From positions 3,596,001-3,660,000 of the forward strand of contig CP136061.1 in NCBI GenBank assembly GCA_032622095.1: a DNA stretch of 64,000 nucleotides, read 5' to 3'. The notes beneath the pieces were generated by a model. It saw nothing but the letters and a program-made list of their open reading frames with translations, searched no databases and was not told where the DNA came from. Shown one piece after another: positions 161-51,560 of this stretch. The position numbers and the translations under genes were made by a program. The stretch is from Siphonodentalium dalli (taxonomy: Eukaryota > Mollusca > Scaphopoda > Gadilida > Siphonodentaliidae). The stretch's first letter is position 1; each line of letters opens with the position of its first letter.

Positions 161-327
161 GTCCCGTCGAGATACCATTTGTAATTGAACGATGAAGCTT
201 TCTGTAAATCTGACCAGCTGCTGGAAATCAATCTCTGCGGTGTGAACCAGGACCCACGATCAGCGCCAACAGTGTTGAACAACAGCCATGCCACAATATC
301 ACCTCCAGTGTACAGGACGATGGCTGC
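161..327 (-). CDS. Exon 4: extracellular domain, continued
   Basis: A 167-base exon, 55 codons plus two bases. It starts at 327 after TATATATCCCAG and ends at 161 before a GTAAGT donor (160-155). It continues exon 3 in frame: an IVLY strand, a GADRGSWF segment and LISSSWSDLQ. The pattern of a hydrophobic strand, then G-D-x-x-x-W-F, then SSSW-x-DL reads as one conserved domain with exon 3. The first 42 bases of the exon, together with its acceptor, are repeated upstream in a 73-bp tandem array. In the extra copies the frame hits TAA soon after, so only the acceptor at 328-330 keeps the protein open. The following intron opens straight into a GAT/ATC trinucleotide array. Later exons lie outside the window. 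Confidence 0.7.
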
Positions 328-641
328 CTGGGATATATAATTATTATCAGTGTAACAACCATGCCACAATATCACCTCCAGTGTACAGGACGATGGCTGC
401 CTGTGATATATAATTATTAACAGTGTAACAACCATGCCACAATATCAGCTCCAGTGTACATGACGATGGCTGCCTGTGATATATAATTATTAACAGTGTA
501 ACAACCATGCCACAATATCACCTCCAGTGTACATGACGATGGCTGCCTGTGAAATATAATTATTAACATTGTAACAACCATGCCACAATATCACATCCAG
601 TGTACATGACGATGGCTGCCTGGGATATATCATTATTAACA
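286..641. repeat. 73-bp tandem repeat spanning the exon 4 splice acceptor
   Basis: About five copies at an exact 73-bp spacing: the marker CCATGCCACAATATC starts at 286, 359, 432, 505 and 578. The unit contains, on the minus strand, the end of intron 3 with its CAG acceptor and the first part of exon 4. Only the copy at the left edge runs on into full exon 4. Confidence 0.95.
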
Positions 642-1401
642 ATATCATTTAAATTTCACATACATTTATACATTATACATGTATGTCTAAGATACTGTAT
701 GCATATATGTACGGTTTATTGAGATTGAATAAATTCTAACTCTAATCATAAATAAACAACAGTCAATAGAACATGGGTAGAACAAGACGATGTATACCTA
801 TATTACAAACAAGATAGATTCATGACCAGTGTCAATAAAACAGTAGCTACAACTTATCGCCTATGATGTATGGGGAGATAGTTGCCTAGGATTTAGAATA
901 GATCTCGATTGAAAGGTTACAAGGACTAAATTATTGAAATTATGCCCCTTGGCATTGGTGAATGGAAACTCTAGTCAGTATAAAAACAATATGGTAACTG
1001 AATGGTGTATAATATCTGCGGTTGTTTCATATGAACGAAAACCTAAATCCAAAAAGGCTACAGGGAGGGGGGGGTCTGCAGAAAACTTCCAGACATAGGA
1101 CCCCGTGTGGGTCCGGGGTGGATTCCTACCGCCCACTGCGAGGGGTAAAAATCCTCTAATGTGGCACACTGTTTGCCGTGGGGTGCACCACGTGAGGTGT
1201 GGTGTAGGAGTCCTGGGGTACTATAGGGCGGTCGTATCACGCGAGGCATCGACCTTCGGAAACGACTTAGCTCATGGTCCTCTTTGGTCCTGGTTTCAAA
1301 CTCAATACTGGCGGTGCTATGCTGCTAAACTGCTAATTAACGAACAAATTAGGAAAAGAGAGTCTCAAACTCGATCCTAGCGCTGATATCAGAATTATTT
1401 A
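642..1401. other. Intronic sequence, no gene seen
   Basis: AT-rich to about 1050, then a GC-richer block (1050-1260) with a run of G and a small palindrome around GGACCCCGTGTGGGTCC. Open frames here have no protein-like content. Confidence 0.6.
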
Positions 1402-1841
1402 TTGACAGAAGTACAAAGTTGTATAAGTTTGAATCAGTAGCATTACATAATGGCGACTATCAACATGGTGCGTAATAAGTCAAGTGGGCATGTATATTGT
1501 CGCTTCGCATATATAAGAGAATGCATTAGCCTAACAAATGTTAAATTATTTTTTAACTGTTAAAGAATGTATAAGAAATAATGATAAAAAAATTGATAAA
1601 TAATGTAAGACTTTTTTTTATGATAAAATTGTTGAAGAAATAAGAACAAATTATAAACATTGGTATAGAATGTAAGAAATAATTATTTTAAAAAATGATT
1701 AAAATTGTTAAAGAATGTAAGAACAAATGATATATTTTTTTAAAGACTGTTGACAGAAGTACAAAGTTGTATAAGTTTTAATCAGCAGAATTATATAATG
1801 GCGAATATCAACATGGTGCGTAATAAGTCAAGTGGGCATGT
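1402..1841. repeat. Direct repeat pair (about 92 bp) around AT-rich filler
   Basis: 1402-1493 and 1750-1841 share about 90% of bases, both starting TTGACAGAAGTACAAAG and ending AGTGGGCATGTA. Between them is A/T-rich sequence with a loose repeat of AATGTAAGAA. Position 1505-1530 also carries a fragment of the dispersed palindrome found at 6350 and 57163. Confidence 0.85.
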
Positions 1842-2110
1842 AAATTATGTTGTTTATAAAAATATAGGTATATGTAAATTTCAATGTTTCCCAAAGAATA
1901 TATTGCGGTTATGTACTTCTGTACGCGATGGCATAGCCAGGAGAGCTATCTTCCGGCCGACCCCGTGTAATGATTATACATTGCGTTTCCTGGCTTGTGT
2001 ATGTGGGGCTCCACCCGCGCTCCAATCCCATTCTACATTGATCAGTAGATCAGACGCTCCGATTGGTGTGTTGTAACTGCATGCATAATCACGGATCTGA
2101 GTGGTGCTAT

Positions 2111-3010
2111 CACCCTAAATCTAGTTGGATAAGAAGTTATACAACAGTCAATCAACCGTTTTATGCCCACAGCACCTATCTACATTGTGTGAAAAGTTGC
2201 ATGACAATTTTGTTGGATACACTTTTACACAACGTTGCATATATATTTACTACCAACGGTTGTATGTTAATTATACAACGTGTTGGATGAAATTTCACAC
2301 AGCACTCAATCAACGTTAATTGCCCACAGCACATGTCTACGTTTATTGAACTGTTGGGTGTTGGGTAGAGTTGGGTAACATTTGTTGATTGGAAAGTTTA
2401 CCCAACGTTGATTGGAAAGTAAAATGGGGCAATACGTCGTGGATAGCTTTGCCGGTATAGTATACCTTTGTTATAATTATTCTTTGTACGATACACTGAT
2501 TATGTAGGATTTGTGTGTTGAGTGTATGAGTGTATGAGTGTACTACTTTAGTCAAATTAGTGCCGTCATGCAGCAGTTGTGTAACTTTGTAAACTTCAAA
2601 ATTTGGCAAATATAAATAAATATAAATAAATATACACTCAATACATAAAACCTACATAATCAGTGTATCGTACACAGAATAATTATAACAAAGGTATACT
2701 ATACCGGCAAAGCTATCCACGACGTATTGTCCCATTTTCCAGTCACTCAGGAGTTTTTTCACGCAGTCGTCCATCTTGTTTTGAAATATTTGGAGCCAAA
2801 AACTCGCATGCTCGCCCGCACCGGAAACGCGTTGCTATTGGATGACCCGGTCACGTGGCGGTTTTATCCAATGTTGTATGAAAGTAATACCACAGAAGAC
2901 AGTTCAGGCAATCAGTTGTGTACATCGTACTAAACTGTTGGATAATAAGTACACAACAAATTCGCACCCAACGAGTTGTATACAACGTTCATCCAACTAG
3001 ATTTAGGGTG
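2111..3010. mobile_element. 900-bp foldback element with nested inverted repeats
   Basis: The outer ends CACCCTAAATCTAGTTGGAT (2111-2130) and its reverse complement (2991-3010) form a perfect 20-bp terminal pair that continues less perfectly to about 35 bp. Inside, 2421-2528 and 2632-2738 are a second inverted pair of about 108 bp, nearly identical. Further short motifs are reused (for example TGCCCACAGCAC at both 2165 and 2320). No coding region is visible, so this is a non-autonomous DNA element. I could not settle a target-site duplication. Confidence 0.8.
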
Positions 3011-4148
3011 TACCTGAGCCTCGTGTGCACCAATTGTATTGGCTAGCAACTTCAGAACCCCTCTTTAGCAGCATAGTACGACTAGCGTCAAGTTTGAAAC
3101 TCTCTTTTCTTATTTCTATTATATTATATCCCCTAATTTGCAGAACACAAAATGCATAATCGAGTTGACTAATGGGTGAACTGTTGAACATCACCAACTT
3201 CAACTGGGGAACTTCAATCTGATCCTAGGTCTCCCATAGCAATTGAGGCCTAACAGAATGAGGTTCCCAGAGGGTGAATTTGTTTGGACATATGGGAATT
3301 CGCTCTGGCGTGATGATCTGGAAACAACGATGCAGCTTTTCAAATGAGAACACACGTGCATCCAACCAACTAGTCTACAAACAGCTCCGCATTTGAGGTC
3401 AGGAACATCTGCGAAGCACTTCCATTCGGCAAATATCGGCATTTTCCGTACCGTATATGAGATGGCTACCGATGAATGAATTTTCGCGCAACATCGCTGG
3501 CAACCTTGGACCGTTAAACATACGGTCAGGCTGTAGCATGTTCCACGGTACAAAACCGTTTAAGTAACTGGCAGACTGTAACCAGTAGCTGTCAGACCGA
3601 TGTATTTGTTACGGCTCAACACGGTTTAATTAATATCAAGACCGTAACAAATAAAGGTCAGACCTATGGTATTTTTCACGGGTCAACACCAATTGTTTGC
3701 TCTTAATTTACTAATTTACCGTAGAATTATCCAAGTTCCCATGGTGACAATATGATTTCCCGGTTGGCATTACGATTGATATGTTTTAGAATGGTCGAAA
3801 CTAGTATTATTCGTAACTGAAAAATACATCTTAGTTCTATTATTATCATAGTTTTGATGAAACGTAAATCTTTCAATGCATAAAGTGATAGCCAATACTT
3901 ATGAAACTTTGTAGTTTGCAGAGGTTCAAACTTGTTATCTGCCTCGTGGAATTTAATCCCGAAAAAGGCTGTACACGCGTGATGTGTTCACCTTTCGCTA
4001 ACTACTGTATAAATATGTCTGTAAATGAAAAACACGATTCTAGTAATAGCCGAAAAGCCAACGCATCAGTATTCAGTTACGAGTAATTCTAATTTTGACC
4101 ATTCTAAAATATATGAATCGGGATGCCATTTTGAGACATAAAAGAACA
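3011..4148. other. Intronic sequence, little structure
   Basis: No convincing gene. A small inverted pair built on ACCGTAACAAATAAAGGTC and its complement lies at about 3596-3661. The longer open frame at 3200-3553 (minus) has no recognisable feature. Confidence 0.5.
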
Positions 4149-4155
4149 GTTAAAA

Positions 4156-5528
4156 CAGGGGGGGGGGGCGAATTTTTTTTACGAGACGTGAGGTAGGGGG
4201 GTGGGTGGGTAACCAACCGAGGCCGGAAACAGTTTTTGACCACTTTTTTGGCATTTTGTTTTCATTGACATATTTTCAACTGTTTTAAACATATTTGTTT
4301 ATATGTTGTGGCTTGTTGCAATATGAGAAGCACTAATACATTCAATATTGATATAATTACCCCCATAAGTTGATATAAAATGGAAAAATAGTGAATATTG
4401 TGGGGGTGGGTCCCAAAATTTTCATTGACTTTTTTTGCGCGCAAATTTTTTTTATTGTGTCTGTTTCAGCTTGCTTGGCAGTTTTTATATTGAAAATTGT
4501 CTAGTTCACGGTGTAGTTCAATAAAAAAAATACTTCAGATAGCTCTAGGGTAGGGTGAACTTAATGCAGCCTGACAATATCAGCTATAACAACTCATGAC
4601 AGAATATTACAATAATTCTTATACTTCATGACAGTCTCTTTACTCATACAGTTAGCTGATGCATGAGTGTAATGTATGAAATAATGTATCAGAATAATGT
4701 ATAGTTAATAATATATAGTAGACACAGGTAGACATATAATAGTAGATCAAGAGTACAGCCGGTATACTGTAAACAGAAGACCAAATTGGAGTTATCTTCC
4801 CTACACCAACACAATGACGTTACGCTTACTGTGACCTCGTCTCCACGGTCACGTCACTAAAGTGCACATCCGTGTATATGGATTTCGCACTAAATTGACC
4901 ATCCGCGTTCAAACTCAAAGGGTTAAACATTATTTTAGGCCTAGCCAATCCTAAGTCGTAATGCGAGGTCGGGTCGGTGCAGGCATTCATAAAAGCTAAT
5001 TCGTATACTGGTTCATATGCACATTTTCCTTTTTGGTATTACTATAGGCTCTAGGCCTACTAGTTGATGCTGGTTGATGTCTGAAAAAAAGTTAAATTGA
5101 ATTTTGTGTAATTGTTTATTCTATTATAGGCCCTAACACTGGCCCTAGTTATTTTTTGTTGTCATTCCAGGGGATTCAACATATTTTTTATATACTCACA
5201 CAGATGAATAGGCTGGGTTATAAATTTACCAATATAATCACATCATATTCTACCTTTGTTCGATTGCTTAGAGTTCAATTTTGCACATGTTTGTAACAGG
5301 AAGTCAGCTGAGGAAGTAACATTTAATTTGGTCTTTCAAAGAAGGGACCAATATAGAGCGGTTGGTCGTTACAGAGGGGACCAATATAAAGTTTTGGGGT
5401 TTTGGGGGGTGGGTGTCTAAAATTTTATGAAAAAAAAAAGGAAAGGGTGGGTGGGTGTAAATAAATGGCAATGTAAAAAAAAAACACCCCCACGTCTCGC
5501 AACGTTTTTACGCCCCCCCCCCCCCCTG
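4156..5528. mobile_element. Non-autonomous hAT-like element, 1.37 kb
   Basis: The left end is CAG followed by a G run and CGAATTTTTTTTACGAGACGTG. The right end is its imperfect reverse complement, closing with a C run and CTG. Both ends are flanked by the 7-bp direct repeat GTTAAAA (4149-4155 and 5529-5535). CAGG...CCTG termini with a duplication near 8 bp fit the hAT superfamily. No transposase is present; G-rich strings recur just inside each end (4195-4210, 5395-5455). Confidence 0.75.
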
Positions 5529-5536
5529 GTTAAAAC

Positions 5537-6349
5537 TCAAATTTATGTACATGTACAATTAGAACATCTTAATGTCATCTTTTTTGGTAACATGTAGGGC
5601 GTGAAATTGTCCAGTCACTTGTAAACACAGTTTTTGTTTTAACAGGTGAATCCGTACATCACGACAGTATATCAACAACAGCTAGTTGGGATTGAAACCT
5701 TCAAGACAACAGCAGATCCCGTAATGAATGCGCGCGATGATTTGGCGACAATATTCTCCTACATGTATAGTCTCACATTTTTCGATGAATTTTGACAGCA
5801 TGATGCATCAAACTATGTATACTTGTATCACGACACTTGGTATCCATATCCGTGAGTCAGCCAATGATGGTTTGATAAGAACATCCAACCAATAGTGCAC
5901 CCCCGGTCCGTAAATTGCCGTAATAACTTGGCGATAACATGGCTAATGACGACAATGTCTCATATATACACGTTTCAATGAAAATTGATGAACACGGGAT
6001 GAATCGGTCTGTGTAATTGTAATAGTGGTACATGTAAGTTGGAATTATATATGTGTGATCATCCGTCATTGCGAGGCGTCAGTTCATTGTTTACGGTGTT
6101 GTTGTTGTTGAAATTGAAGCTCTTGTGAATTAATCTGGTGCGTACAGTATATACTCTCGTGTAAATGTACATGCATGTGCTTTGAAACAATCAGAACACT
6201 GTCAACTGGACTGAACAGTTCAAGTGTCAACATTCTAATAGCTGTTATGTAAATAGTATGTTGTTATTGATATTGTTGCCACCAGTGCATGACATCGAAG
6301 CCCTTGTTAATTGTACCTGTATCCCCCTGTGTCAGTATTTTTTTGCGAA
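5537..6349. other. Intronic sequence, no gene seen
   Basis: Unique-looking AT-rich sequence. The frame at 5857-6069 (minus) has no protein-like features. Confidence 0.5.
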
Positions 6350-6528
6350 AACCCTGTGACGATGCATTCTCTTGGGTATGAGAGTCTTCCTAGGGCGCCT
6401 CACATTTATAAGAGAATGCACTGGCCTAACAATATTTACCCTTATCTTGTAAGCCAGTGCATTCTCTTATATATGCGTGGCGCCCTATGGGCGACTCGCA
6501 TACATAAGAGAAAGCACTGACACAGGGT
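6350..6528. mobile_element. Dispersed palindromic element, copy 1
   Basis: Built from four alternating-orientation copies of a motif around TAAGAGAATGCACTGGC, with outer ends CCCTGTGAC / GACACAGGG. A related copy is at 57163-57322 and a fragment is at about 1505-1530. It has no coding sequence and resembles a miniature foldback element. Confidence 0.75.
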
Positions 6529-6529
6529 A

Positions 6530-7056
6530 TGTAATGCTGCACCAGCGCAGCTCCCATCATGATAGGGTTAAAATAATGTTTGCCAAATTCTTTTAGAAAT
6601 TGCCGAATTCTATCAGTTTCTGCAACATTGAATCTTATATGTCAACAAAATTAATGTGCCAGAAAACTAATACATCTATGCATATAAAACGCACCTGCAC
6701 CACAGCTAACTACGTGAGAAGTAAAACTCGGTATATTTCCACATGTAGCGATGCTACCGATAATTACCTATAAATAACAAGCAATTATCTCGTACGAGGG
6801 GGGGGGGGGTCGGACAAAATTTTCAGGGACGTATGCTGATTTTTTCCTGATTTTTAACTCTCATGTCGTTGGCTCTGGCAAAGATGCAGTTTTTAGACAT
6901 GTTGCCGTTCATATTCTGGTGGTTTTCTATGACGAAATACCTGAAAAATTACCTGCCAAATTTGCCAGTGTGTCAACACAGCCTTAGTGGGATGAGAAAA
7001 AACAAATTACCACGATTTTGATGAGGACGGCATAGGCGTTGTCAGGACGATAATCA
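6530..7056. other. Intronic sequence, no gene seen
   Basis: Contains a G homopolymer at about 6799-6809. Nothing else stands out. Confidence 0.5.
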
Positions 7057-7430
7057 CTACGATGACAAGATGAAGATGATTAGGTCGACGGCGCTGAAGG
7101 CGACGATACTGATGATGACTGCATTGTATGATGACGATGATGACGACAGCAACGACGACGATCACGTCGATTATGATGATGATTATGATGTTAATGATGA
7201 AGTTGTTGGTGATGATGAGGATAAAGATGACGGCGACGACAATGATGATGATGTTGATGGTGTTGATGATGATGACGATGATGCTGACGAATAATGATGA
7301 TGATGATGATGGTGATCATGATGATGATGGTGATCATGATGAGGATGATGATGATGAGGATGATGATGATGTCGACGACGATGATGACGATGAGGATGTT
7401 GATGATGGTGATGATGATGACGATGATGAT
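7057..7430. repeat. GAT trinucleotide array
   Basis: A long imperfect GAT/GAC array. The acidic poly-Asp reading frames across it are repeat products, not a gene. Confidence 0.9.
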
Positions 7431-7446
7431 CTAAGTGACCACATTG

Positions 7447-7615
7447 TATATATAAGGATTAACTGTCATGTGGACTGTTTTTATGGAGTTGTAACGGTGA
7501 GGTAAGTGGACATAACTTGTGTAAAACCCGAAGGGTTTTACATACAAGTTATGTCCACTTACCTCACCGTTACATCTCCATAAAAATAGTCCACATGACA
7601 GTTAATCCTTATATT
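7447..7615. repeat. Near-perfect hairpin, arms about 80 bp
   Basis: Left arm 7447-7529 and right arm 7533-7615 pair almost completely around a three-base centre (GAA at 7530-7532). It abuts the GAT array. It may be a foldback mobile element. Confidence 0.85.
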
Positions 7616-8038
7616 TATATACATTTAGCGAAAAAGCCGCTTTTGTAAATATATTTAAATCGAAAAGTGTATCGTGACAAGATCAGCCCAAAATACCCAA
7701 TAGCACCCTTGGCAAAAGTTAATAGGAACAATTTCTCTTCATGTTGAAACCCGATGATGTATTAAGTCAATCCTGCGCGAGTCAAAATGCGCCCAAAGCA
7801 TTACGCGTTCGTCTTTCCAAACCTAATGACGTATCGATGGTGTTATTAGCTTGGTGTTATGAGGCGTTACGCATTCACCGAGAACTAACTGCAACTAGCC
7901 ACGTGGGCGCCGACCAATCAGAATGCTGGATTTAGTGATGACAACACTTAGTGTGTAAATATATGTACATATCCATGTACGCATTAATTTGCAGCGTTGA
8001 CACTTAAAGCATACAAGATGTAAAGGTGGAGTACTTAC
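7616..8038. other. End of intron 3's 5' portion, no gene seen
   Basis: Directly downstream of exon 3 on the minus strand. The plus-strand frame at 7741-7935 shows no recognisable domain. Confidence 0.5.
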
Positions 8039-8199
8039 TTTAATGATCGAGCCCGGAGTCCGCCAGTCGTTAACCACCCTGCTCCTGTATACATCGTTGC
8101 AGCCCGGGCCCGTGCAGATCTCCAAGTCGTTATACCACTCATCGAGAACGTTGACCCCTGTTTCTTTGTGAACCCCAAATACCAGCTCCATTCTCCTAT
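8039..8199 (-). CDS. Exon 3: extracellular domain, first half
   Basis: A 161-base exon. The acceptor is CTCTCTACTTTAG and the donor is AAA|GTAAGT at 8038. The exon adds two bases to the codon opened by exon 2 and then 53 codons, beginning RRMELVFGVH and ending PGSIIK, phase 0. Key features are a conserved-looking ELVFGV strand, a WYND segment, a C-x4-C pair (CTGPGC) and a VVNDWRTPG turn. Codon and amino-acid make-up are clearly protein-like compared with neighbouring sequence. Its end joins exon 4 directly in frame, making a continuous beta-rich stretch. I believe this is the first half of an extracellular domain found after PAN modules in some molluscan predicted proteins, but I cannot name the family. 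A later acceptor at 8197-8196 would change the phase and break the join with exon 2. Confidence 0.7.
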
Positions 8200-50704: not shown

Positions 50705-51560
50705 TAGAAAGATCAAGTATATATCTACTCAGATGACAGTGAACAAACTGATTCTACTGGGACAGGAGCGAGACAGAAATAAAAATCAAGTCGATTACTC
50801 AGAAAACATGAACCAAACTGATTCTGCTGGGACAGGAGGGATACAGAAACAAATTCAAGTAGGTTTACTCAGGGAACATGGACCGAAATGATTCTACTGG
50901 GACAGGAGGGAGACAGAATAAAAATCAAGTATATTTACTCAGAGAACCGGGACAGAACTAATTCTACTGGGACAGGGGTGAGACAGAAACAAAATCAAGT
51001 AGATTTACTCAGAGAACCGGGACCAACTAAGCTGATTCTACTGGAGAGGAGTGAGACTGAAAAAACAACAAGTAGATTTACTCAGAGAACATGAACCAAA
51101 CTGATTCTACTGGGACAGGAGGGAGACCGAATAAAAATTAAGTAGATTTACTTAGAGAACATGAACCAAACTGATTCTACTGGGACAGGAGGGAGACCGA
51201 GAATAAAATCAAGCAGATTTGCTCAGAGAACACGAACCACGCTGATTCTACTGCGACATGAGTGAGACAGAAACAGAATCAAGTAGGTTTACTCAGAGAA
51301 CCGGGACCGACTAAGCTGATTCTACTGGTACAGGAGTGAGACAGAAAACAAAATCAAGTAGATTTGCTCAGAGAACTGGGACCAAACTGATTATACTGGG
51401 ACAGGAGTGAGACAGAAAAAAACATCCAGTAGATTTGCTCAGGGAACATGGACCAAACTAATTATGCAGGGACATGAGGGAGACAGAAACAATCATCAAG
51501 TAGATTTACTCAGAGAACAGTAAACAAACTGATTGTAATGGGACAGGAGCGAAAAAAAAC
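50705..51560. repeat. About 70-bp tandem array, twelve copies
   Basis: The unit contains TGATTCTACTGGGACAGGAG, GAGACAGAAAC and AGTAGATTTACTCAGAGAAC. The GGGACAGGAG-GAGACAG core is the reverse complement of the CTGTCTC-CTGTCCC core of the preceding array. Confidence 0.95.

Follow-up and report, generated by a model that had tools for sequence, protein, structure and literature searches.

A minisatellite of 73-bp units lies across the boundary between intron 3 and exon 4 of a gene in the window (the whole stretch of 64,000 nucleotides that was analysed), and places four decoy acceptors upstream of the authentic one. We consider, with a probability of about three in four, that this array is a tolerated splice-boundary minisatellite of the "mirage" type, of which Canestro 2002 is reportedly the original paper, and that splicing takes place mostly at its last acceptor. 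In the scenario that we favor, 73 bp spanning the end of intron 3 (31 nt) and the start of exon 4 (42 nt) would have been duplicated in tandem in one lineage of the gene family and then multiplied. The four upstream copies would be full-strength-looking yet unproductive acceptors, splicing at any of them adding a stop far enough before the exon 4/5 junction for decay to be predicted. The array would be tolerated since enough transcripts take the last, authentic acceptor, the sole one that precedes the full exon.

Gene model and anatomy of the array

Read from the sequence, the gene holding the array lies on the minus strand of the window, and so do its exons, introns, and acceptors given below. 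Its authentic exon 4 (161-327, 167 nt) is entered in phase 0 and left in phase 2, reads AAIVLYTGGDIVAWLLFNTVGADRGSWFTPQRLISSSWSDLQKASSFNYKWYLDG plus 2 nt, and is followed by a GTAAGT 5' splice site at 155-160; the label "exon 4" comes from the first-pass annotation, and the number rests on earlier exons (exons 1 and 2) that were not located here. Upstream, exon 3 (8039-8199) ends with ...RMELVFGVHKETGVNVLDEWYNDLEICTGPGCNDVYRSRVVNDWRTPGSIIK and a phase-0 donor, AAA|GTAAGT, at 8038-8033; between the two exons extends intron 3 (328-8038, 7,711 nt), whose 3' end contains the four decoy acceptors. Exon 5 begins about 2.0 kb downstream of exon 4, beyond the window, at C1:3594161 descending; its match is to a distant paralog located on a different contig (E ~5e-9, among ten pieces compared), and the phase-2 junction between exons 4 and 5 is open in frame when read by eye. 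Exon 4 thus appears to be an internal exon, because its apparent stop codon, TAA, sits within the phase-2 GTAAGT donor. We also considered exon 4 as the last coding exon, terminated by the open-frame stop at 157-159, and this was ruled out by the family-wide phase-2 GTRAGT-like donor and by the in-frame exon 5. For exons 1 and 2, upstream pieces of compact paralogs, compared mutually (the L018-L019 pairs left out) and with the window, gave only exons 3 and 4 as plausible family exons.

At the exon boundary, TRF reports a single array at 281-641 (period 73, 4.9 copies, 95% matches, score 645), in good agreement with the first-pass annotation, which had claimed five repeats of a 73-bp unit at 286-641. 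Read on the minus strand, the unit consists of the last 31 nt of the intron and the first 42 nt of the exon, and the five acceptors of the window are spaced by exactly 73 nt. The printed units also bear out the claim that each one carries a CAG acceptor with the first 42 exon bases: every copy carries C[A/C]CAG followed by the exon start up to ...GCATGG, with few substitutions between copies. The authentic copy departs from the decoys past GCATGG, and the full exon 4 stands behind the last acceptor alone. This authentic CAG (328-330) comes last, on the 3' side, among the five acceptors of the pre-mRNA, and an AG is found at this place in 45/45 family loci. In the order of the pre-mRNA, it is preceded by decoy 1 (578-622; CAG at 620-622), decoy 2 (505-549; CAG at 547-549), decoy 3 (432-476; CAG at 474-476), and decoy 4 (359-403; CAG at 401-403), each with its exon-like 42 nt (359-400 for decoy 4). 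The window array has, therefore, the direct tandem repeats across an intron-exon boundary by which mirages are defined, and the splice signals expected within their units are also present, the AG being found in all 20 decoys of the three loci described next.

Three loci carry such an array: the window locus L007 (C1:3.596 Mb), L008 (C1:1.78 Mb, inverted relative to L007), and L009 (C1:75.8 Mb, array at C1:75831766-75832711), with 5, 5, and 13 acceptors, respectively. L007 and L008, which lie about 1.8 Mb from each other in opposite orientations, are almost identical, with 15 mismatches in 2,002 flanking bases; they result either from a segmental duplication, inverted and recent, or from a misassembly of haplotypes. 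In the L009 array, a period of higher order is superimposed on the units and spans about four of them (293 bp, 95% matches), which suggests expansion by several units at a time. Other tandem repeats, with 28-bp units, lie downstream of exon 4 at L007:3373-3427 (2.0 copies) and 5836-7858 (68 copies) and at L009:3916-4163 (8.9 copies), all given in gene orientation.

Predicted outcome of splicing at the upstream copies

The first-pass annotation had taken the extra copies for decoy acceptors, and two results speak for it: they score like authentic acceptors and each of the 20 leads to a stop. Using a scoring model built from 42 single-acceptor loci, a small set of related sites, we obtained 10.2-12.7 bits for the decoys and 11.5-11.8 for the authentic sites of the array genes (10.6-12.7 vs. 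11.8 in L007 and L008). As yardsticks, the median of the 42 single sites is 10.5 (leave-one-out), and, among 90 AGs taken from 2.3 kb of intron 3, the highest score is 9.7.

According to the nonsense-mediated decay rule, a stop codon is recognized as premature when it lies more than ~50-55 nt upstream of an exon junction. Reading from each of the 20 decoys, we reached a stop in frame that precedes the exon 4/5 junction by 67-990 nt, i.e., all of them have the stop distance of NMD-coupled unproductive splicing. In the window, the first three decoys read into TAA, as the first-pass annotation had it for all the copies, at 402, 329, and 256 nt before the junction for decoys 1, 2, and 3; decoy 4 reads into TGA, at 186 nt. 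The annotation had also supposed that use of a distal acceptor would truncate the protein. This is not expected with an internal exon: because exon 4 appears to be internal and a further junction follows each stop at 67-990 nt, the predicted outcome of decoy use is nonsense-mediated decay and not a stable truncated protein.

The same facts would be expected if the array acted as a rheostat, in which the decoys compete with the authentic site, a share of the transcripts decays, the copy number sets this share, and the output of the paralog is lowered. Indeed, the decoys score as strongly as the authentic acceptor, in all 20 the stop precedes the next junction by 67 nt or more, all 20 keep their AG, as a functional reading would also predict, and the copy number varies among paralogs (5/5/13). 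We nevertheless hold this explanation to be unlikely. The few coding changes seen in the decoys look neutral. Between L007 and L008, 7 of 168 sites differ in their exon-like parts, which gives 4.5 nonsynonymous and 2.5 synonymous changes by path averaging, near the neutral ratio, seven changes being too few for proof. These two near-identical loci both have five acceptors, and the L009 decoys have accumulated frameshifts and nonsense codons, although such changes would be harmless to a poison site. Moreover, PMC3087553 and PMC3902484 report that lancelet mirages with splice signals do not disturb regular splicing. A graded form, in which serial acceptors divert a fixed fraction of transcripts per copy to decay, the levels of the 5- and 13-acceptor paralogs are graded accordingly, and heritable or somatic tuning arises by unequal exchange, seems to us slightly less probable again. 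As judged from sequence, nothing in the present analysis favours the tuning of splicing by copy number that the first-pass annotation had put forward. If the decoys did compete, the array would constitute a simple DNA-level dial on expression.

The way in which the copies change was followed by comparing them within and between loci. Among the 20 decoys, 8/21 columns vary in the -20 to -1 region, 10/43 in the exon-like part, and 9/11 further upstream, the copies being homogenised. Between L007 and L008, the decoys differ at 9/292 sites, significantly more than the flanks (15/2,002; p=0.0018), so that the units turn over faster than their flanks, though both loci have five acceptors. Exon 4 itself is identical in these two loci (0/171), which is not significant against the flanks (p=0.62).

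A third explanation would be that a decoy produces a real alternative isoform, i.e., a shorter protein ending in AAIVxYTGGDIVAWLLHC. In all eight decoys of L007 and L008, the frame stays open as far as nearly the same stop, as such a protein would require; against this, an internal exon makes that stop premature, and decay should follow. Furthermore, three of the 12 decoys of L009 are shifted out of frame by a one-base deletion, two have a TGA at codon 14, and the decoy residues vary at codons 5, 6, and 9. We judge this isoform to be improbable.

The exon family, constraint, and origin of the array

Exon 4 belongs to a large, dispersed family. Searching the genome with its protein gave at least 45 loci at E 0.01 or better, and with that of exon 3 at least 26 matches at the same threshold; matches lie on C1, C2, C3, C4, C7, C8, and C9, with intron phases 0 and 2, and the exons have in common the motif AWLLFD..G....SWFT..RL..SSW.DLP. 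Placing the exon start by protein alignment, we found an AG exactly at this position in 45/45 loci (CAG in 33), and, because of this, exon 4 appears real as far as sequence can tell. A phase-2 GTRNG-like donor is found 155-184 nt past the exon start in 38 loci, and a weaker phase-2 GT occupies the expected place in six of the seven others (L020, L023, L027, L030, L031, and L039); in L020 it is GAG|GTACAG, and the downstream piece of this locus, L063, gave the exon-5 match. L011 is the sole locus of the 45 without an in-phase donor, its GTAAGT being out of phase, and it also has an in-frame TAG. Pfam searches gave nothing significant for exon 4 alone (best, DUF1604, E 0.15), nor for exons 3+4 or other paralogs (6 proteins), nor for exons 3+4+5, and PDB sequence searches gave no meaningful match. 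There is presumably a vague likeness between the family proteins and uncharacterised proteins of lophotrochozoans.

The array, used as the query of a genome-wide DNA search, gave seven loci (ten match rows, best candidates scored), each of them an exon-4 locus of the family. The presence of the same array at non-exonic loci, which the first-pass annotation had named as the mark of an ordinary satellite, is thus not what was found, no match falling outside the exon family among the best candidates scored. This bears on the idea that the array is an ordinary satellite, or an assembly artefact, with no gene around it. Tandem arrays are common in this genome, those of period >=20 covering 9.5% of the window, in 24 separate blocks, and, in two further sets of pieces from the genome, 5-6%, and L007 and L008, as near-identical inverted copies, could come from haplotype misassembly. 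On the other side, 45 homologous loci, that of the window exon included, have matching splice signals, and a third, diverged locus, L009, has its own longer array, leaving this idea, already mostly refuted, about as improbable as a decoy isoform. For the P450 loci (best 20), only the repeat coverage was used, and they were unsuited to a survey of exon boundaries because they matched over most of the profile in one open frame.

In the other 42 of the 45 loci, TRF places no array over the exon start; around the exons in 35 other paralogs, arrays of period >=20 cover 0 of 30,987 bases, and exon 3 shows none in the nine pieces checked. At the wider array densities, chance alone would put 2.5-4.3 of 45 exon starts inside arrays, arrays being rarer near the family exons. 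The presence of an array over the exon start in 3/45 loci, probably with one origin, needs no special cause.

We then consider whether the tolerated minisatellite that we favor is compatible with genes that still encode their protein. Between L007 and L009, exon 3 and codons 1-51 of exon 4 show 12 changes in 71 synonymous sites and 8 in 238 nonsynonymous sites (dN 0.034, dS 0.191, p=0.00025 for the counts). A dN of 0.060 and a dS of 0.242 (p=0.037) are obtained for codons 15-51 of exon 4, the part that only the last acceptor puts in frame. Intron 4 differs at 126 of 1,506 aligned bases (three pieces, two overlapping by 57 bases). The nonsynonymous rate of exons 3 and 4 together is below that of intron 4 (8/238 vs. 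126/1506, p=0.006), while no such difference holds for the exon-4 tail alone (5/87, p=0.55); synonymous sites, for their part, outpace intron 4 (p=0.028). Coding constraint is then weaker than the dN/dS test suggests, because, with intron 4 as the yardstick, the exon-4 tail appears unconstrained and synonymous sites evolve faster than the intron. The 324 exon bases compared contain no gap, and the intron alignment has 121 gap positions; at the start of exon 3, just before the compared bases, L009 lacks three bases, in phase. All this points to a partial coding constraint in the array-bearing genes, and the full exon 4 is probably still made, which would account for the array being tolerated.

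Concerning the origin of the array, the paralogs L010-L013, with one acceptor each, likely represent the pre-array state. The intron end of L010 and of L011 is ...GTTGTACACA..., and GTTGT is present in their exon from base 42, so that GTTGT occurs in both the intron end and the exon. At the array junction, exon ...GCATGGTTGTT is joined to intron ACACTGTTAATAA.... We infer that the tandem duplication took place between the short GTTGT matches of the native intron end and exon, which would explain the unit, with one base in excess; what stood natively at the breakpoint is uncertain, because the intron ends of L012 and L013 lack GTTGT. The array is likely older than the split between L007 and L009, because both share the junction.

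Relation to known repeats at splice sites

The closest counterparts of this array are the mirages of amphioxus genes, described in PMC3087553 as minisatellite-like duplications of intron-exon boundaries. In PMC3087553 and PMC3902484, they are reported in Adh3, in the globin genes BflGb6 and BflGb9, in PGBD5 (added by PMC3902484), and in troponin C, with unit lengths of 10-160 bp and AG/GT signals in many units. BflGb6 repeats the 3' end of an intron together with the 5' part of an exon, with 6 and 3 units in two haplotypes (PMC3087553), i.e., the same parts as in our minisatellite-like repeat across an intron-exon boundary. RT-PCR suggested that mirages leave regular splicing undisturbed (PMC3087553), and PMC3902484 says likewise for Adh and troponin C. 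Unlike what is described there, the present array lies in another gene, each of its decoys adds a stop, and array-free paralogs of the same family show the likely starting state.

A step in intron or exon gain, in which the units would become new exons or introns, has been proposed for lancelet globin genes (PMC3087553) and, although our units have acceptors and a weak internal GGAG|GTGATA as a possible donor (by eye, unscored), this is the least probable reading here, the possible donor being altered in several units (GGAGCT, GGATGT) and the resulting 25-nt exon shifting the frame.

The tolerated minisatellite is, hence, a further well-documented example of a mirage, and its mechanism is not new. 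Our literature search gave no earlier description of the array of the present gene and, among the titles, none that we recognised as a non-lancelet acceptor array of such kind, which does not imply absence from print. The array probably extends mirages, described to date in cephalochordates, beyond lancelets. Moreover, it offers a natural experiment on acceptor choice, with near-identical serial 3' splice sites that differ mainly in the exon sequence that follows, and array-free, 5-acceptor, and 13-acceptor versions are found together in one genome and one gene family, whose paralogs suggest the duplication breakpoints.

Two other systems can be compared with it. The minisatellite of the interferon-induced 6-16/IFI6 gene, said to supply multiple splice donor sites (Turri 1995), resembles the present array in that a tandem repeat multiplies a splice site; it differs in that the site is a donor, not an acceptor, and its unit is reportedly much shorter than 73 bp. 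Reed and Maniatis 1986 is said to have dealt with competition between duplicated splice sites followed by different exon sequences, an arrangement like the one described here; their substrates were engineered constructs, whereas the present array is natural. Elsewhere in the window, a larger minisatellite, with ~70-bp units in 11.8 copies, occupies positions 50708-51549.
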